DNA from: an uncultured Chloroflexota bacterium
Lineage (GTDB): Bacteria; Chloroflexota; Dehalococcoidia; UBA3495
Assembly: GCA_913031095.1 (NCBI GenBank)
Contig: CAJWGH010000014.1
Span: forward strand, 1 to 10,785
Length of the DNA stretch: 10,785 nt
Direction: 5' to 3'
Below are positions 370-10,785 of this stretch, piece by piece. How positions within the stretch are numbered: position 1 is the first letter of the stretch; every line of letters starts with the position of its first letter. Made by a program: the position numbers and the translations under genes. The notes under the pieces were generated by a model. It had not been told where the DNA came from. It ran no database searches and saw only the letters and a program-made list of their open reading frames with translations.

Positions 370-1182
370 TCAGATCATGATATTCATCTGATTGACGATA
401 GTTGTGCCCAAAGTAGTGTCCCCGGCGACAATGACCTTGCCGGAACGTATTGCTTCCGCGGGGTCCCAGCGTCCGCACCCCAGACAAGCAAAGGTTTCGA
501 CATCGGTGGTAATCCGGACCGTCGGTGATTCCGGCTCTGAGTCCAGTTCACTGCCCCGTCCCCCTTCGACGGCCACAGGAACAATTTGGCCCGCCGGGCC
601 GGTGATGTCAAATACCACGGTGATTCCGTCGGGGGCTTGGGCTTTTCTGGCCGCAACGAATGGCATCGCCCGGGCCACGCGGCCCACGGCGTGAGCCGCC
701 ACAGAGCTTTCTAGCTCACCAGGAACGGCCAGCGCCCGCCGGATGTCCTGCTCATGCACCCAGGCGTCCATGATGCGGATGCGCACGAACTCGGTGACCG
801 TGCCAGGGCCGATAGGTGTTTGCATCTCAGTGGCGAACTGCTCCTCAGACAGGCCTCTGAGGTAAGTCAACCGCCGACTGGTCAACTCCCGGAACTCATC
901 CAGAACCTTTTCCCCTGACCAAGGGCGTCGAAAATCCACCACCACTTCATTGGACTGACCGACGTCGTTCTTGACGTGGGCCGTGTCTTGGGGAGTGTGG
1001 TCAGGTCGGGGTTCTCCCAATATCCCGGACTCGGCTCCTACCAGATGGGACACCTGGTCTTGTACCGACCAACCGGGGCAGTCGGTTGGCGTATTCCACT
1101 GGGCTTCAGTCAGTCCAGAGCACAACGAGTCGATGGAACTCCAAACATGTTCCATCAAGTCAACCACTTGTTGATTGGTCAT
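370..1182 (-). CDS. Maleylpyruvate isomerase family (MDMPI/DinB-like) protein
   Basis: This 270-residue cytoplasmic protein matches the mycothiol-dependent maleylpyruvate isomerase family (TIGR03083 type): an N-terminal four-helix DinB-like domain followed by a C-terminal SCP2-like region. Seen in the sequence: the N-terminal family block around CPGWSVQDQVSHLVGAE (residues 35-51, His46 a likely metal ligand), the second block MDAWVHEQDIRRAL (138-151, with His143, Glu144 and Asp146), and the C-terminal GRWDPAEAIRSGKVIVAGD region. Members carry a metal and some use a low-molecular-weight thiol as cofactor, but most have no known substrate. The ATG at 1182 is supported by a GAGGAG ribosome binding site 4 bases upstream. 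The gene starts 36 bases after the redoxin gene ends, so the two are probably co-transcribed. The family is well supported; the reaction is unknown, and whether this organism makes mycothiol cannot be seen here. Confidence 0.85.
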   Translation of the reverse strand: MTNQQVVDLMEHVWSSIDSLCSGLTEAQWNTPTDCPGWSVQDQVSHLVGAESGILGEPRPDHTPQDTAHVKNDVGQSNEVVVDFRRPWSGEKVLDEFRELTSRRLTYLRGLSEEQFATEMQTPIGPGTVTEFVRIRIMDAWVHEQDIRRALAVPGELESSVAAHAVGRVARAMPFVAARKAQAPDGITVVFDITGPAGQIVPVAVEGGRGSELDSEPESPTVRITTDVETFACLGCGRWDPAEAIRSGKVIVAGDTTLGTTIVNQMNIMI

Positions 1183-1218: not shown

Positions 1219-1722
1219 TCAGTGTGCTTTTTCCTCTTCCTTGCGGCGAATATTCTCTCGGTAGGTGATGTAGTGTATGGCCTCGTCCGCGCCCATGCGC
1301 CCCACTGGCCCCGTAGCATACATGGCACCCAGCACGGTGCCGCCACGGCCCAATAGGAACTCGGTGGGCTGAATGTAACCACCCCGATCCTCGGACCACC
1401 ATGATCCCAGCAGGTCGCCGTCGGCTTTGGTTGCAGCGTAAGCCATAGGAAAAGTCAACTTATTGTTGTCGGCAACTTCTTGAGCCAGTTCTTTGGTATC
1501 AACGCTGACGGCATATGTGGTGACGTCCAGTTCCTCCAGCGCTGCTTTGTTAGCTTCCCATTCGGCTAACTGCCGGTTGCAGTAGGGTCACCAATGGCCT
1601 CGGTAGAACAACAACGCTGTGTACCGGGTAGGTGCGTCGTCGGGTAGGGTGATAGTGCCCCCATCTAACAGTTGGAGGGCAACCTTTGGGAGGCGGTCCC
1701 CCTGTAGTAATTTCTCGCCCAT
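1219..1722 (-). CDS. Redoxin/peroxiredoxin-like selenoprotein with in-frame TGA (Sec45)
   Basis: Read through one TGA at 1590-1588, this is a complete 167-residue thioredoxin-fold protein of the AhpC/TSA (redoxin) type. Family features seen in order: QGDRLPKVALQLLDGG at the N-terminus (residues 7-22), then TALLFYRGHW-TGA-PYCNRQLAEW (35-55), then VTTYAVSVDT (67-76), then GSWWSEDRGGYIQPTEFLL (106-124). Cysteine homologues have RGHWCPYC here, so the TGA replaces the active-site Cys and gives Sec45-Pro-Tyr-Cys48. There is no other stop or frameshift. The ATG at 1722 has an AAGGAG site 5 bases upstream. TGA is a normal stop in neighbouring genes (trpC, trpD, the isomerase-family gene), and Trp44 is TGG, so a general TGA-to-Trp code does not explain it. 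A SECIS-like hairpin follows the TGA. Inferred role: thiol peroxidase or disulfide oxidoreductase. The alternative is a recent nonsense mutation (TGC or TGT to TGA) or a sequencing error. Redoxin identity about 0.95, selenocysteine about 0.75. Confidence 0.82.
1559..1579 (-). promoter_or_regulatory. Candidate bacterial SECIS hairpin downstream of the in-frame TGA
   Basis: Inside the redoxin coding sequence, CGGC (1575-1572) can pair with GCCG (1566-1563) around the loop AGTTA. An outer CA/TG pair (1579-1578 with 1560-1559) lies across a 2-by-2 internal loop. The loop begins 16 bases after the TGA and has a G at its second position. Both properties agree with the usual description of bacterial SECIS elements, where SelB binds and directs selenocysteine insertion. 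The stem is short, and a competing 5-bp hairpin (ACTGC 1583-1579 with GCAGT 1573-1569) exists, so the exact fold is uncertain. Confidence 0.5.
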
Positions 1723-1955: not shown

Positions 1956-2831
1956 GTGCAGCAGATAACCAGCAATGTATGGGTTGAGACCGAGACTAGG
2001 GGCTGCAACTTTGGGTTCGTAACCACGAGTGACGGCATCGTTATGGTCGACAGCCCCCACAAACCGACCACCGCCATGTGGCTGAAGTCAGAGATCGCGA
2101 AGCGGGGGCTGCTCCGCTACATCATCAACACAGAGCCTCACGGCGACCACTGGACCGGCAATGCGTTCTTCGACGCCCCAGTGGTGGCCCACGAGGGTGT
2201 CCGCGCCCGTATTCTAAACACCGACATGGCCGAACACGCCTCCAGAGTGGGCACATTTGGCCCTGACGAACCTGAGTTGCTAGAGGGATACACTGCCAAT
2301 GCCCCAGTGATAACCTTCCGAGACTCCATGACCATGCACGTTGGTGACCACACCTTCGAGATGGTCCACATGCCAGGCCATACCCTCTACCAGGCAGCCG
2401 TGATCGTTAAAGAAGAGGGCGTGGTATTTACCAGCGACAATATTTTCCACGGCGTACAGTCCTGGCTGCACGAGGCCGATCCGGACCTCTGGCTCCAAGC
2501 CCTCGAATCTTTGAGAGACCTGAGTGAAGACATCTTCGTGCCTGGTCACGGAGAAATGTGTGGCAAAGACTACTTGGACGAGCAAGGGTCATTCATCTCC
2601 GAGTGGAAAGACTACGTACAGGACGCTATCAACCGAGGCATGACCAGAGAGGAGTCAGTATCAACCCTGACAGCCATGATCGGCCGATACCCTATGGACG
2701 TAGAACAGGCAGCCTTAGCTCCTATGGTCATGGGCATAAACGCCGGTAACCTCTACGACTACCTGACCGGCCCCTGGCCTCCCGCCTCCATGGGCACAGT
2801 GGCGACCAGGCTGCCAGAAGATGACAGGTAA
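1956..2831 (+). CDS. MBL-fold metallo-hydrolase with a Glu-for-His metal motif
   Basis: The 291-residue protein has the metallo-beta-lactamase fold. It opens with QQITSNVWVETETRGCNFGF (residues 2-21), the usual first strands, followed by GIVMVDSP (27-34). The zinc motif normally reads HxHxDH; here it is Glu60-Pro-His62-Gly-Asp64-His65, inside NTEPHGDHWTGN. The remaining ligands are present: His142 (MPGHT), Asp161 (TSDN) and His198 (VPGHGE). This resembles general MBL hydrolases rather than a clinical beta-lactamase. The substrate is unknown; hydrolysis of an ester, thioester or lactone would be typical. There is no signal peptide, so it should act in the cytoplasm. It is transcribed alone, divergent from the selenoprotein unit and convergent with the aminotransferase. 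The GTG start is chosen because of the GGAGG site and because the N-terminus then aligns with the family. The fold is certain; the function is open. Confidence 0.88.
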   Translation: MQQITSNVWVETETRGCNFGFVTTSDGIVMVDSPHKPTTAMWLKSEIAKRGLLRYIINTEPHGDHWTGNAFFDAPVVAHEGVRARILNTDMAEHASRVGTFGPDEPELLEGYTANAPVITFRDSMTMHVGDHTFEMVHMPGHTLYQAAVIVKEEGVVFTSDNIFHGVQSWLHEADPDLWLQALESLRDLSEDIFVPGHGEMCGKDYLDEQGSFISEWKDYVQDAINRGMTREESVSTLTAMIGRYPMDVEQAALAPMVMGINAGNLYDYLTGPWPPASMGTVATRLPEDDR

Positions 2832-5184: not shown

Positions 5185-6396
5185 CTAAATCTCTAGCCCC
5201 GAAGCCTCGGCCACGATACCGATGTCTTTGTCGCCTCGGCCACTGAGACAGACCAGGACGGTCTGGTCTGTCGAGAGCGTCTTTGCCAGTTCGACCGCCG
5301 CATACACCGCGTGAGACGACTCCAACGCCGGGATGATTCCCTCGGTACGGCAGAGTAGATGGAACGCCTCGAGAGCATCTGCGTCATTAACTTCCCGGTA
5401 TTCGGCCCTGCCGGAGTCCTTCAAGTAGCTGTGCTCCGGTCCAACTCCTGGGTAGTCCAAGCCGGCCGAGATGCTGTGTGTCTCTTGCACCTGTCCGTGC
5501 TCATCCTGCAGCAAGTAAGACATCGCACCATGGAGTACGCCAGGGCGTCCCGCGCTGAGGGTCGCCGAATGCTTGCCAGTAGATATGCCTTCGCCTCCAG
5601 CCTCAAGCCCCACCAACCTCACATCTTCTTCGGGCACGAAAGAGTGGAACATACCGATGGAATTACTACCACCCCCGACGCAAGCCAACACATAATCGGG
5701 CAAGCGTCCTTCGATCTCCAGCAACTGTGTTCGTGCTTCGCGGCCGATGACTGTCTGGAAGTCGCGAACCATCACTGGATATGGGTGTGGGCCAACGACG
5801 CTGCCGATCAGGTAATGGGTGGTCTCAACATTGGTCACCCAGTCTCGGATGGCTTCATTGATGGCGTCCTTAAGAGTCTGAGTGCCCGAGTCTACAGAGA
5901 TCACCTCAGCCTTAAGTAGTTTCATCCGGAAAACGTTCAACGACTGCCGCTTAATGTCCTCGCTGCCCATGTATACGATGCATTCCAGGCCAAGCATGGC
6001 ACAGGCAGTAGCCGAGGCAACCCCATGCTGGCCAGCCCCTGTCTCGGCGATGATTCGCTTCTTGCCCATACGCCGGGCCAGCAAAGCCTGCCCTAGGGCG
6101 TTGTTTATCTTGTGAGCCCCGGTGTGCGCCAGGTCTTCGCGCTTGAGGTAAATCTTGGCGCCGCCGCAGGCACGAGTCAGGTTCTCGGCGAAATACAGGG
6201 CTGTAGGCCGCCCGGCATACGTGTGCAGCAGATGTTCAAGCCGCTCTTGGAAATCTGGGTCAGCCTTGGCCGCTTGGTAGGCGTCATCCAACTCCGAAAC
6301 GGCAGCCATGAGCGTCTCAGGAATAAACTTCCCTCCAAAATCTCCAAACCTACCTCTATCGTCTGGAAAGCGGCTCACCGCGTTTTCATCTGCCAT
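5185..6396 (-). CDS. trpB: Tryptophan synthase beta chain
   Basis: This 403-residue protein is the PLP-dependent beta subunit that joins indole and serine to make tryptophan. It is the common TrpB1 type. Seen: [17 protein letters not shown] (14-30), [19 protein letters not shown] (85-103, with the PLP lysine Lys96), AETGAGQHG (117-125, catalytic Glu118), VGPHPYP (201-207), GGGSNS (241-246, phosphate loop) and CLSGRGDKD (383-391, Ser near the PLP nitrogen). Every key residue is present. The ATG at 6396 has AAGGA 7 bases upstream and starts 19 bases after trpF stops. An upstream in-frame extension to 6498 would overlap trpF by about 80 bases and adds a basic, non-homologous tail, so it is rejected. 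It is the last trp gene here; trpA does not follow. Confidence 0.97.
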
Positions 6397-6415
6397 TGAG
6401 AATTCCTTCTTATTC

Positions 6416-7099
6416 TTAGGTTGACTTGGCAGCAGCCTTTCTGGCTGTGCGCATGAATTCTTTGATCTTGGCGTGGTCTTTGTCGCCGTCGGTCTCAACG
6501 CCGCTGGAGACGTCTACGCCCCAGGGTTTTACCATAGAAATCGCTTCGAAGACGTTTTCAGGGGACAAGCCGCCTGCCAAAAGAAAGGGTTGTCCAGCCT
6601 GAGAAAGGGATGCTGCCACCTCCCAGTCGAAACTCTTTCCGGTGCCACCCTGGATACCTTCGACGTATCTATCTAAGGTCACCAAGTGCCCCACGCCGCT
6701 GTATTCCTTCATCCTTGCACCGGCGCCTGCGTCATCCTCTGACGTAGCAGACTCTGCAACGTGCACCACCTTGATCACATCGCAGCCTGTTTGGCCTGCG
6801 TACTCCACGGACTCTTTGCCGCAGAGTTGGGCGAGATCGAGTTTGCAAAATTCTACTATTCCAGCAACTTCCTCGATAACCTGGTCAGCAAACAGGCCCA
6901 CAATCCGAGGGGTCGGGCAGTCCGAATTCCGAACGCCGTCTACTATGACCTTGGCCGCTTGGGGAGTGATACGGCGGTGCCGCTCAGGGACGAATACCAT
7001 GCCGATGAAATCCGCGCCTGCTTCGGCTGCAATCACCGCGTCTTCCAGGTTGCGTATACCGCAGATTTTAACCTTAAGGTCCCGCGAATCCATGGTCAC
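6416..7099 (-). CDS. trpF: Phosphoribosylanthranilate isomerase
   Basis: This 227-residue TIM-barrel enzyme converts phosphoribosylanthranilate to CdRP, the third step of tryptophan synthesis. Seen: [14 protein letters not shown] (8-21) with the general-base Cys13, GADFIGMVF (28-36), the general acid Asp143 in VTLDRY, then GGTGKSFDW (151-159), [10 protein letters not shown] (174-183) and GVDVSSGVE (194-202). One oddity: the usual LHG of the VQLHG motif is Leu92-Cys93-Gly94. The GTG start at 7099 shares four bases with the trpC stop (GTGA), which implies translational coupling; an ATG two codons inside at 7093 is also possible. A linker around 117-135 is rich in Ala, Asp and Gly. Confidence 0.94.
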
Positions 7100-7896
7100 G
7101 TAGCCGAGGCTTTTTGCCCAGTTAGTTCCCTGACCTTCTCCCCCACGTCAGGCGCAGTAACCAGGGCCTCGCCCACCAGTACTGCATCTACCCTGCTACG
7201 GTTCATCTGCCGCAGATGGTCACGTGTGAAGATGCCGCTTTCGCTTACGATCTGTTTGCCCCTAGGCACCAATGGCGCCAGACGTTCGGTCACAGCCAAG
7301 TCGGTGGTGAAAGTGCGGAGGTCCCGGTTGTTGATTCCCACAACCTCTGCTCCAGCCTCCACAGCCTTGTCCAGTTCAGCTTCGTCGTGTACCTCTACCA
7401 GACATTGCATCCAGTGTTCTTGCGCCGCGGTCAACAATTCCTTGAGTTCAGTGGGCTCCAGGATAGCCACGATGAGCAGCATCGCGTCAGCCCCGGCAGC
7501 CCGAGTTTCAGCTACCTGGTAAGGGTCAAATATGAAATCCTTACGTATGACCGGTGCACGCTGGGACGACCCGGTCTCTTTGATCTCCCGCAGATGGGCC
7601 AACTCACCCTTGAACCTCGGGTCTGTGAGGCATGATATTGCTGCCGCGCCATTGGCTGCATAAGTTTCAGCCAGCTTCAAGTGGTCAAACTCGGGCATCA
7701 GCAGGCCACGCGACGGTGATGCCTTCTTGACCTCAGCGATCAACCGCACGCCGCCGCCGAGTAACGCTCCAGACATATTCAGAGGTCTCGGTTGATCAGC
7801 TGCTACAGACTCCAGATCGGCTATAGATACCCGAGACTTGCTCTCGGTCAGCTCGGCACGCTTCGCAGTGACTATTTCATCTAGGATGTTGGGCAT
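7096..7896 (-). CDS. trpC: Indole-3-glycerol phosphate synthase
   Basis: This 266-residue single-domain TIM-barrel enzyme closes the indole ring by decarboxylating CdRP; trpF is a separate gene, not fused. Active-site blocks: LIAEVKKASPSRG (52-64, with Glu55 and Lys57), APVIRKDFIFDPYQ (114-127, with Lys119), LVEVHDEAEL (166-175, with Glu168), GINNRDL (187-193), VSESGIF (217-223, with Glu219) and AVLVGEALV (238-246). Length and residues are normal. The ATG at 7896 follows trpD by 65 bases, the largest gap in the operon, and has only a weak purine-rich ribosome site (GAAAGAAGAA). Confidence 0.96.
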   Translation of the reverse strand: MPNILDEIVTAKRAELTESKSRVSIADLESVAADQPRPLNMSGALLGGGVRLIAEVKKASPSRGLLMPEFDHLKLAETYAANGAAAISCLTDPRFKGELAHLREIKETGSSQRAPVIRKDFIFDPYQVAETRAAGADAMLLIVAILEPTELKELLTAAQEHWMQCLVEVHDEAELDKAVEAGAEVVGINNRDLRTFTTDLAVTERLAPLVPRGKQIVSESGIFTRDHLRQMNRSRVDAVLVGEALVTAPDVGEKVRELTGQKASAT

Positions 7897-7961
7897 ATTT
7901 CTTCTTTCACGGGCTTGGATACCCGACTAACATTGTGCTTCGTCGCAACGATTTCGGTGGC

Positions 7962-8975
7962 TCAGGCGCCCCTACTAGCCTCGATCATGGACTCCATACG
8001 GGCCTTGGCCGCGCCCGAATCTATGGTCTGTGCCGCCAGCTGGACGCCATCACGGATGTTGGTGACCAGGTCACCTGCCAGTAGCACGCCAGCGCCATTC
8101 AGCAGCACGTAATCTCGAACCGGGCCGCCCTCTCCACTAAGAAGCGCCCGCATGGTTGCCGCGTTGTCTGCTTTGTCCCCGCCTCGGACGGCTTCGGTAG
8201 AGGTGATAGGGAGGCCTGTGTCAGCCACCGAAAGTGTCCAGTTGCTAACTTTGCCGCCGGCAACCTCCCACACGGTTGTGTTTCCGGCAAGGGTCATTTC
8301 GTCCAGGCCGCCGTCGCCATGGACGACTATCGAATGATGAGTGTCAAGTAGATTCAAGACTGACGCCATCTTCTCGCCAAGATCCGGAAAGGCCACCCCG
8401 ACCAGCATGGATTGCGCTCCAGCTGGATTGGTCAACGGCCCCAGGATATTGAATACGGTGCGGATTCCTATCTCGCGCCGCGCTGGGCCAGCGTGGCGCA
8501 TGGAGGGATGAAAGGCTTGAGCAAACATGAACCCTATGCCGCTCTCCCTGATGCACTGCTCCACTCCCTCAGGTGATAACTCTATCTTGACGCCTAGCTC
8601 CTCCAGCACATCGGCACTGCCGCAGGTACCCGACGCCGCCCGGTTGCCATGCTTGGCAACTTTCAATCCCGCTCCGGCGGCAACGAAGGCCGCAGCGGTG
8701 GAGATGTTGAACGTGTTTAGGCCGTCGCCGCCTGTACCCACCGAGTCCACCGCCATGCCGTCCACGTTCACCCGCAGCGAGAACTCACGCATGATGGTTG
8801 CCATGCCGGCAATCTCTTCGTTGGTCTCGCCTTTAAGTCTAAGCGCGGTCAGTAATGAGCCCAGTTGGGCTTGAGTGGCTTCACCGGACATGATCTGGCG
8901 CATCACCGACGCCGCGTCGTCCATGAGCAGGTCGTTGCCAGAGACGACTATATTTATCGCTTCTCTGATGTCCAC
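7962..8975 (-). CDS. trpD: Anthranilate phosphoribosyltransferase
   Basis: This 337-residue enzyme transfers phosphoribose from PRPP to anthranilate. Seen: SVGTGGDGLNTFNISTAAA (78-96, PRPP loop), KHGNRAASGTCGSADVLEELG (108-128; Lys108 and Asn111 flank anthranilate), FHPSMRHAGPARREIGIRT (155-173), NILGPLTNP (176-184), and GLDEMT (223-228, Asp225 and Glu226 as the second metal site). It is not fused to TrpG. The start is GTG at 8975, supported by AGGAG 8 bases upstream that overlaps the trpG stop codon. The gap to trpG is 11 bases. Confidence 0.97.
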   Translation of the reverse strand: MDIREAINIVVSGNDLLMDDAASVMRQIMSGEATQAQLGSLLTALRLKGETNEEIAGMATIMREFSLRVNVDGMAVDSVGTGGDGLNTFNISTAAAFVAAGAGLKVAKHGNRAASGTCGSADVLEELGVKIELSPEGVEQCIRESGIGFMFAQAFHPSMRHAGPARREIGIRTVFNILGPLTNPAGAQSMLVGVAFPDLGEKMASVLNLLDTHHSIVVHGDGGLDEMTLAGNTTVWEVAGGKVSNWTLSVADTGLPITSTEAVRGGDKADNAATMRALLSGEGGPVRDYVLLNGAGVLLAGDLVTNIRDGVQLAAQTIDSGAAKARMESMIEASRGA

Positions 8976-8983
8976 CTACTAAG

Positions 8984-8988
8984 CTCCT
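8984..8988 (-). promoter_or_regulatory. trpD ribosome binding site overlapping the trpG stop
   Basis: AGGAG begins inside the TAG stop of trpG and lies 8 bases from the trpD GTG. The layout keeps ribosomes close by after trpG and supports coupled translation and the GTG start. Confidence 0.6.
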
Positions 8989-9583
8989 ATTCAAACCCTC
9001 TTGCGTCAGACGCCGCGCTCACTTTATCCAGAAAATTCTGCAGCAGATGCTTCCCGTCTGGAGTCAAGATGGATTCCGGATGGAACTGAACTCCCTCCAC
9101 CGGGAATTCTTTATGCCGCAGACCCATAATCAGTCCGTTATCCGTTTGGGCGGTGACTTCCAGGGTATCCGGAATGGTCTCCGGATATACCACCAAGGAG
9201 TGATACCGGATGGCCTGGAAGGGGTTGGGCAGCCCAACGAGCACACCGGCCCCTTTGTGGCTCACCATAGATGTCTTGCCGTGACGAATCTCGCCTGCCC
9301 GGCCCACTTTGGCTCCGTACACATACCCTATGCACTGGTGGCCCAGGCATACACCCAGGATCGGAATTATCGGTCCGAACCGGCGTATCACGTCGTTGGA
9401 GATTCCTGCCTCAAGGGGAGTAGATGGCCCCGGAGAGATTATTATCCCAGCTGGCGATATGTCGGCGATCTCTTCCAGCGAGATCTTGTCGTTTCGGGCC
9501 ACCTCAACCTCAGCTCCTAGCTCGGATAGATACTGGTACAAGTTGTAGGTGAAGCTATCGTAATTGTCGATCATTAAAAGCAT
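8987..9583 (-). CDS. trpG: Anthranilate synthase glutamine amidotransferase component
   Basis: This 198-residue class I glutamine amidotransferase supplies ammonia to TrpE and may also serve PabB (the family includes dual-use PabA/TrpG). Seen: MIDNYDSFTYNLYQYL (4-19), IIISPGPSTP (47-56, oxyanion loop), GVCLGHQCIG (77-86, nucleophile Cys79), GKTSMVSHKG (102-111), RYHSLVV (126-132), and GVQFHPES (164-171, completing the triad with His168 and Glu170). It is full length. The ATG at 9583 was taken; a second Met three codons later is also possible. The VOC gene ends 31 bases upstream. Confidence 0.96.
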   Translation of the reverse strand: MLLMIDNYDSFTYNLYQYLSELGAEVEVARNDKISLEEIADISPAGIIISPGPSTPLEAGISNDVIRRFGPIIPILGVCLGHQCIGYVYGAKVGRAGEIRHGKTSMVSHKGAGVLVGLPNPFQAIRYHSLVVYPETIPDTLEVTAQTDNGLIMGLRHKEFPVEGVQFHPESILTPDGKHLLQNFLDKVSAASDARGFE

Positions 9584-9614
9584 GATTCCCTATCCCAATA
9601 ACGTCTGGCTGAGC

Positions 9615-10055
9615 CTAGAAGGTCTCGACGAACTCCAGCCAATTACCGTCAGGATCTTGGGCGTAGGCTGCCTTCCGTGACAACTTCCCGCTGTCGTCGA
9701 ACATGTGTGCCGGTGGGTTGTTATATTTTATGCCTTTCTGGGAGGTGTTTTCATAGAATTTATCCAAGTCTTCCACAAAAAAGGCCAGGTGTGACGCCCC
9801 CAGGTCGTTCCGGTGCAGATGGTTCTCGCCACTTGCCGGGGAGAGATATTGGATGAGTTCCAGTTGGTGTCCCTCTCCCATATCGACGAAACCACCCTTG
9901 ATGTGCGCGCCGGGGAAAGCCAAGACTTGTTCCACGAACTCGCCCTCACGCTCCGTTCGGCCTGCGATGCGCATGCCCAGGACGTCGGCGTAAAACTTGA
10001 TGGACGCCTCGATATCCTTGACTACGAACCCTGTATGGAAAAATGACTTCAACAT
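9615..10055 (-). CDS. VOC/glyoxalase-fold metalloprotein inside the trp operon
   Basis: This 146-residue protein has the two-repeat beta-alpha-beta-beta-beta fold of the vicinal oxygen chelate superfamily. Seen: FFHTGFVVKDIEASIKFYADVLGMR (split at residues 5-29), LELIQYLSP (65-73), ASHLAFFVEDLDKFY (87-101) and QDPDGNWLEFVE (133-144). Four metal ligands of the glyoxalase I pattern are in place: His7, Glu66, His89, Glu141. It could be a glyoxalase-like lyase, an isomerase or epimerase, or a dioxygenase; the sequence does not decide. It lies between trpE (26 bases away) and trpG (31 bases away) with its own GAGGAG site 9 bases before the ATG, so it is co-expressed with tryptophan synthesis. A role in the pathway, for example removing a reactive carbonyl side product, is speculation. 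Confidence 0.88.
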   Translation of the reverse strand: MLKSFFHTGFVVKDIEASIKFYADVLGMRIAGRTEREGEFVEQVLAFPGAHIKGGFVDMGEGHQLELIQYLSPASGENHLHRNDLGASHLAFFVEDLDKFYENTSQKGIKYNNPPAHMFDDSGKLSRKAAYAQDPDGNWLEFVETF

Positions 10056-10081
10056 TTTCTCGTGCTCCTCATCTCTCTATG

Positions 10082-10785
10082 TTAATCTGAGCCTTCGGCT
10101 AGGTCGATAGCCCGCATCAGCGCACCAGCTTTGTGGCGAGTCTCCTGAAACTCATCCTCGCCGACGCTGTCGGCCACGATTCCGCCGCCCGCTTGCACGT
10201 ACATGATGCCGTCTTTGTAGACGCCGGTGCGCAGTACCAGCGCCGTATCCATATCACCTGAGTAACTGAAGTAGCCCACTGCCCCTCCGTAAGGCCCTCG
10301 CTTTTGGCCCTCCACTTCGGCGATTATCTCCATAGCCCGAATCTTGGGCGCTCCCGAGACGGTACCCGCTGGGAAGCAGGAGCGTAGTGCATCGTACGAC
10401 GTCATTCCAGGTTTGAGATCGCCTTCAACGTGGGAGACCAGATGCATCACATGGGAGAACTTCTCCACGTCCATCAGCTGTGTGACCTCCACCGTGCCTG
10501 GCTTGCTGACCCGGCCGATGTCATTCCGTCCCAGGTCTACCAGCATGATATGCTCGGCGCGTTGTTTCTCGCTGCCCTTCAGTTCAGCCTCGTTGGCGTC
10601 GTCCTCACCCGGTGTTGCACCGCGGGGCCGCGTGCCAGCGATAGGATGGGTCGCCGCTTTGCCACCATGGACAGTCACCACTGTCTCGATGGCGGCGCCC
10701 ACGATCTGAAAGCCGTCCAGGTTCAGATAATACATATAGGGCGAGGGGTTGATACTGCGGAGTGACCGGTAGATTTGGAACGGGT
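10082..10785 (-). CDS. trpE: Anthranilate synthase component I, C-terminal part (cut by window edge)
   Basis: The visible 233 residues are the C-terminal half of the chorismate-binding domain; the frame runs off the right edge, so the start is outside. The segment begins PFQIYRSLRSINPSPYM, typical of TrpE, then gives GTRPRGATPGEDD, LVDLGRNDIGRVS (chorismate pocket), FPAGTVSGAPKIRAMEII, GPYGGAVGYFSYSGDMDTALVLRT and VQAGGGIVADS. These blocks favour anthranilate synthase; PabB and isochorismate synthase share part of them, but the operon decides. With TrpG it makes anthranilate from chorismate and glutamine. The feedback-inhibition site (N-terminal LLES motif) and any upstream leader or attenuator are not visible. 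Confidence 0.95.
   Translation of the reverse strand, partial: PFQIYRSLRSINPSPYMYYLNLDGFQIVGAAIETVVTVHGGKAATHPIAGTRPRGATPGEDDANEAELKGSEKQRAEHIMLVDLGRNDIGRVSKPGTVEVTQLMDVEKFSHVMHLVSHVEGDLKPGMTSYDALRSCFPAGTVSGAPKIRAMEIIAEVEGQKRGPYGGAVGYFSYSGDMDTALVLRTGVYKDGIMYVQAGGGIVADSVGEDEFQETRHKAGALMRAIDLAEGSD

Follow-up and report, generated by a model that had tools for sequence, protein, structure and literature searches.

The 10,785-nucleotide stretch of DNA from an uncultured Chloroflexota bacterium that was analysed in this study (the window) contains a redoxin gene which, on the strength of sequence comparison, very probably encodes a bacterial selenoprotein with selenocysteine (Sec) at residue 45. 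We base this assignment on the placement of a UGA codon at a catalytic position, a conserved downstream hairpin resembling a selenocysteine insertion sequence (SECIS), the occurrence of genes for Sec insertion in the nearest genomes and the selection acting on both halves of the gene. The product is best described as a Sec-dependent thiol:disulfide oxidoreductase related to peroxiredoxins (Prx), or perhaps as a peroxidase. An earlier note on this DNA had proposed Sec in the UxxC active site of a redoxin at 1219..1722 without giving a strand; the gene is located on the minus strand, and the proposal is borne out by its read-through frame and by the recurrence of TGA in relatives, to which the hairpin adds a line of evidence that was absent from that note.

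The reading frame extends on the minus strand from an ATG start at 1722 to a terminal TGA at 1219-1221 and encodes 167 residues (1219..1722). Its sole in-frame TGA, at 1588..1590, corresponds to codon 45 in the context FYRGHW-TGA-PYCNRQL, where it opens a [C/U]xxC motif, whose partner Cys48 (TGC, 1579..1581) is the only cysteine of the protein and invariant in 26 aligned rows. A single match to PF00578 (AhpC-TSA), which covers residues 8-130 and scores 66.3 bits (cut-off 26), spans the TGA and agrees with the intact family sequence that had been noted on either side of the codon. In comparisons of the window with L001-L005 and L097, the ratio of nonsynonymous to synonymous substitution rates (dN/dS) ranges from 0.02-0.11 for codons 1-44 and from 0.03-0.11 for codons 46-106. 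These values point to purifying selection on both sides of the TGA, with both halves being kept as protein. Three loci (L098-L100) were excluded from this comparison, their upstream ratios being 0.06, 0.06 and undefined and their downstream ratios 0.28-0.46 or undefined, the latter presumably out of register through gaps.

The identity of codon 45 in relatives is reflected in 30 loci (L001-L030) obtained from a contig scan of genomes. All 16 nearest loci (L001-L016), whose titles refer to Chloroflexi or Chloroflexota, Dehalococcoidia or SAR202, carry TGA at this position, all 13 of the more distant loci from other phyla (L017-L029) carry TGC or TGT and thus code for Cys, and L030, an ordinary Prx, has Thr, which is the pattern that an alignment of homologues had been expected to reveal. 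Of the 247 genomes drawn from the order to which the closest genome belongs, 103 contain a match at an E-value of 1e-20 or better, with nearly all of these redoxins containing a TGA; a search in the order of G007 returned the same 103 genomes as the order of G001 and nothing new. With 60 further stretches read for codon 45, 91 of the 97 distinct copies show TGA, five Cys (L064, L065 and L067, L145 and L159; three of them from a class-wide draw and two from the order) and one Ser, namely the second copy in L153. This set includes the window and copies with an alignment score of at least 280, after removal of 14 repeat loci and with the second TGA copy of one locus uncounted. Also uncounted are matches from the order that contain a TGA whose place was unread (G415, G355, G379, G416, G360, G347, G219, G382 and G306, two of G353, those of G367, G394 and G421, the second of G391 and the C12 one of G260). 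As judged from these sequences, the recurrence of TGA at exactly codon 45 is far beyond chance.

Beyond this set, TGA is also found at the equivalent residue of distant redoxins of the class (L068, L071, L073-L081, L083, L087 and L089-L091), with others showing Cys (L069, L072, L086) or Tyr (L070), and redoxin matches across the phylum contain TGAs whose place within the match was unread. The distant TGA-containing sequences perhaps hint at a wider hidden selenoproteome. In L153 (G317, contig 43, 47919-48926), two redoxins are arranged in tandem and contain TGA (UPYC) and TCA (SPYC) at the same codon, and the public protein P0002 likewise shows SPYC; in such Ser forms the redox centre may have been lost or another role taken.

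The hairpin is located closely downstream of the UGA on the same strand, with its core CGGC-AGUUA-GCCG at 1563..1575 and its loop at 1567-1571. The loop, AGUUR in general form, begins 16 nucleotides after the UGA and is closed by CGGC and GCCG, and the 13-mer alone has a predicted folding energy of -4.9 kcal/mol. An AGUU loop together with four or all five of the stem pairs is present in 79 of the 91 TGA copies, compared to a mean of 2.75 and a maximum of eight copies that pass the same test in 500 rounds of synonymous resampling. In 84 of the 91 copies the Leu codon of the hairpin is UUA or UUG, a choice that accounts for 17% in the rest of these genes, and the Gln codon of the hairpin is CAG in every copy. 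This skew persists if each cluster at 70% identity is represented by a single copy: 31 of the 32 copies then have UUR, for which the background is 21% (p 2.6e-20), and all 32 have CAG. In L150 and L173, a change of the Arg codon from CGG to CGC is compensated by a change of the Ala codon from GCC to GCG, which maintains the pair and leaves the protein unchanged, and the CAG-UUR pair is found in none of the five Cys homologues. The skewed choice of synonymous codons, the conservation of stem and loop and the compensated changes thus suggest that the RNA is under selection as well as the protein. The comparison also recovers the small apical loop with a guanosine directly after the UGA (79 of 91) that is described for bacterial SECIS elements in PMC1088965. 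A test on the folds of single sequences discriminates weakly, with its criteria passed by 69 of the 91 copies and, on average, by 36% of their shuffles (mean z -1.0), and it is the comparative test that is informative. A scan of the window with Rfam at gathering threshold and with ARAGORN gave no match; no Rfam family thus flags the SECIS.

The machinery for Sec insertion was investigated in the 16 genomes harbouring the nearest loci. A tRNA-Sec with anticodon tca was identified by ARAGORN in 15 of them, selA over cut-off in 13 (all except G004, G011 and G015), selB over cut-off in 13 (in G014 in part) and selD in all 16, and in these relatives a search for sel genes, as the earlier note had recommended, turned out in favour of its proposal. 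For selB, G011 and G005 contain C-terminal pieces that score below cut-off, and G004 shows no match that is distinct from other elongation factors. The Rfam model for tRNA-Sec is passed by all 16 genomes but is unspecific, since five of 14 control genomes pass it too. The selD match itself carries one in-frame TGA in each of the genomes G001-G016 (split in G003 and G011), with its place unread, and SelD is in these organisms probably a selenoprotein in its own right. In a set of 80 further genomes, 55 have a Sec-redoxin, and of these 54 contain selB and 52 contain selA, the 55 originating from 85 other matching genomes of the order in which a TGA copy is the best or equal match. The five genomes with a Cys form (G017, G039 and G090 from the class-wide draw, G247 and G260 from the order, with G260 also containing a distant TGA copy) include three with selB and one with selA. 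Where no redoxin match was found at 1e-20, selA is present in 19 and selB in 18 of 20 genomes. Within the tested genomes of the order, the gene content thus indicates that Sec decoding is near-universal, irrespective of the presence of the redoxin.

Several observations weigh against the assignment as a selenoprotein. The minimum-energy fold of the 45 nucleotides in the window pairs in a different manner and shows no gain in stability over synonymous shuffles (z 0.6), and the SECIS of the window is consequently supported by comparison alone. Moreover, 12 of the 91 copies do not pass the test for stem and loop. The sel genes were read in the genomes of L001-L016, and their presence in the organism of the window is deduced from these relatives. 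One close relative, G004, has no tRNA-Sec detected by ARAGORN and neither selA nor selB over cut-off, while keeping selD, and its match to the Rfam model is a tRNA-Ser, although an incomplete assembly is the likely origin of these gaps. Finally, since genomes without the redoxin mostly contain sel genes, the latter are on their own no specific sign of this protein.

The predicted structure of the protein consists of a single domain with a mean predicted local distance difference test score (pLDDT) of 93.5. Strands at residues 14-18, 23-26 and 34-39 precede the Sec position, and the first helix is predicted to comprise residues 46-57 with UxxC placed at its start. The model can with high confidence be assigned a peroxiredoxin-like fold. 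In a structure search, the 50 entries shown in one listing were all of the peroxiredoxin type, as were nearly all of those in another, where a ResA variant appears at rank 42. By sequence, the solved structure that matches best is that of the thiol-disulfide oxidoreductase StoA (3erw), closely followed by a Bcp-type thiol peroxidase (2cx3), with both matches being weak. An arginine at position 142 is invariant across the 26 aligned rows and might act as active-site Arg. Upon inspection by eye, no export signal is apparent in this small protein. During synthesis, SelB in complex with Sec-tRNA(Sec) would bind the hairpin 16 nucleotides past the UGA and thereby direct the insertion of Sec at residue 45. 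In the folded protein, Sec45 would likely be the selenolate attacking either a disulfide or a peroxide, with Cys48 resolving the intermediate in a Se-S bond that would subsequently be reduced by thioredoxin or a low-molecular thiol.

With respect to its main activity, we lean slightly towards disulfide exchange. That a Sec-containing protein would primarily reduce hydroperoxides is an alternative to which we assign a substantial probability, if somewhat below even. It would be compatible with the peroxiredoxin fold, the peroxiredoxin-type entries retrieved in the structure search and the possible role of the invariant Arg 142. However, Sec occupies the position of the Thr in the TxxC motif of Prx proteins rather than that of the peroxidatic Cys, and the UxxC motif is of the kind found in thioredoxin-like enzymes, in line with the weak but best match to StoA.

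Explanations that dispense with selenium fare considerably worse than a Sec-containing redoxin. It is very improbable that UGA has come to specify Trp or some different amino acid, or that it is read through by a near-cognate tRNA, despite the Trp found at position 45 in four of the 120 public homologues listed (P0002-P0121, from 448 found), which look like the product of a gene caller using a code where UGA specifies Trp. Instead, TGA serves as stop codon of three neighbouring genes (the MDMPI-like gene, trpC and trpD), in line with the earlier note's remark on true stops in neighbouring genes, and the neighbours write Trp as TGG; 11 neighbouring genes or gene parts contain no internal in-frame TGA, which is partly by construction as they were picked as open frames. 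Distant homologues contain Cys and not Trp at position 45, and the tRNA-Sec and SelA, SelB and SelD of the nearest genomes together with the conserved hairpin equally oppose a change of the code, which we have thus rejected.

Even less credible is a start of translation after the UGA with the upstream part as relic or regulator. Public annotation has such a start in 107 of the 120 homologues listed, the remainder showing Trp (4), Cys (8) or Ser (1) at position 45, but the low dN/dS of codons 1-44, the inclusion of the upstream strands in the predicted single domain and the loss of the UxxC site from a shortened product all contradict it. The annotation of the family is a case of misannotation at large scale, in which the active site is cut off, and the truncation foreseen in the earlier note is thereby confirmed. 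That the gene is decaying and has acquired a nonsense mutation, or that the TGA is an error of sequencing, is suggested by this single interruption of the frame in the window and by the existence of decay in the family, but is similarly remote and was rejected since TGA is conserved at one single codon among relatives from many assemblies, with low dN/dS on either side and a conserved SECIS. The decay concerns a second copy in G001 (L177, contig 128, 10161-10582 on the plus strand) whose frame is broken and which contains TGA at codons 33 and 45 as well as a TAG, and that is located about 10 kb from the intact redoxin, adjoining its own MDMPI-like gene.

The distribution of Sec was further placed on a quickly built tree with 110 rows, of which 91 have Sec, 17 Cys and two Ser. 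This tree requires eight changes between Sec and other states, compared to a mean of 17.8 upon shuffling of states, where none of 500 trials was as low as eight. Well-supported branches force at least four of these changes; since several branches are long and the outgroup does not form one group, the count is rough and the direction of change unsure. Most Cys forms of Chloroflexota and both Ser forms are placed inside Sec groups, which suggests that Sec is the earlier state in this phylum. Whether the use of Sec is old and near-universal in this order of SAR202/Dehalococcoidia type, with the redoxin as its marker, Sec as early state and most Cys and the Ser forms as later derivatives, is a proposition for which we see the arguments evenly poised.

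In the window, the redoxin gene is followed on the same strand by a gene for an MDMPI_N/DinB-like protein (370..1182, minus strand; PF11716, 104.6 bits), the former name denoting the N-terminal domain of mycothiol maleylpyruvate isomerase. Of 90 other Sec loci, 13 have an equivalent downstream neighbour on the same strand, and its product could possibly be a thiol-linked partner. A divergent gene upstream encodes a metallo-beta-lactamase-fold protein (1956..2831, plus strand; PF00753, 50.1 bits), which is found in this position in nine of the 90 loci, with the length of the flanks varying in both counts. The region 5185-10783 on the minus strand harbours, as read from its open frames, what are presumably trpB, trpF, trpC, trpD, trpG, a glyoxalase-family gene, which is the only one of them matched to Pfam, and part of trpE.

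Together, our results turn headless database fragments into a protein with a whole active site and indicate the use of selenium across a little studied and largely marine group of Chloroflexota that includes members of SAR202. If Sec use is indeed old and near-universal in the order, an abundant lineage of the dark ocean would depend on selenium, with a selenoproteome that is hidden by current annotation. Since SAR202 strains have been cultured (PMC10444878), this dependence would be directly testable, provided that the gene is encoded there, and the Sec, Cys and Ser forms offer a natural set to investigate what Sec buys a redoxin.

The class to which the protein belongs is already known, as the earlier note had stated. 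Descriptions of Prx-like selenoproteins with UxxC go back to 2005 or earlier, with 22 sequences reported from the Sargasso Sea in that year (PMC1088965), followed by 225 sequences with PF00578 and UxxC termed 'Prx-like 1' in the Global Ocean Sampling (GOS) data (PMC2398784), and later reviews refer to a 'Prx-like thiol:disulfide oxidoreductase' (PMC9312934, PMC13188914). For Chloroflexi, three selenoprotein families with three proteins were listed in 2006 (PMC1794560), the Sec trait was mentioned in 2015 (PMC5322559) and some papers on Dehalogenimonas contain the term 'selenocysteine'. The string 'chloroflex' is absent from the main text of PMC1088965, PMC9312934 and PMC13188914, as is 'chloroflexi' from that of PMC2398784. 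Within the open-access literature, and with no implication for print at large, no paper was found to combine 'SAR202' with 'selenoprotein'; those combining it with 'selenocysteine' mention the latter once each, and those found with SAR202 in the title contain neither 'selenoproteins' nor 'selenium'. The breadth of the family in bacteria of the SAR202/Dehalococcoidia type looks new, as we have not found it described in the open-access literature searched.

The described features set the protein apart from related systems. With Sec-peroxiredoxins, which contain a TxxU motif, it has the Prx fold in common, but its Sec is located three residues earlier, at the position of the Thr, with Cys in the peroxidatic position; the Thr that precedes the peroxidatic residue by three positions is consequently absent (Sec at 45 and Cys at 48, where six aligned Prx show Thr and Cys). 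Compared to peroxiredoxins of the Bcp/AhpE type such as Bcp4 (3hjp), UxxC replaces TxxC and no further Cys is present. The likeness to the SelL-related redox protein NF040769 of NCBIfam is weak and confined to residues 10-92, with 25.6 bits lying far below the curated cut-off of 120 and a UxxC with one Sec in our protein. In contrast, it resembles the published Prx-like UxxC selenoproteins (PMC1088965, PMC2398784, PMC9312934, PMC13188914) in its PF00578 domain, its UxxC motif and the hairpin directly following the UGA, a likeness that is founded on features rather than on the clustering of sequences, and it differs from this set in its Chloroflexota host.
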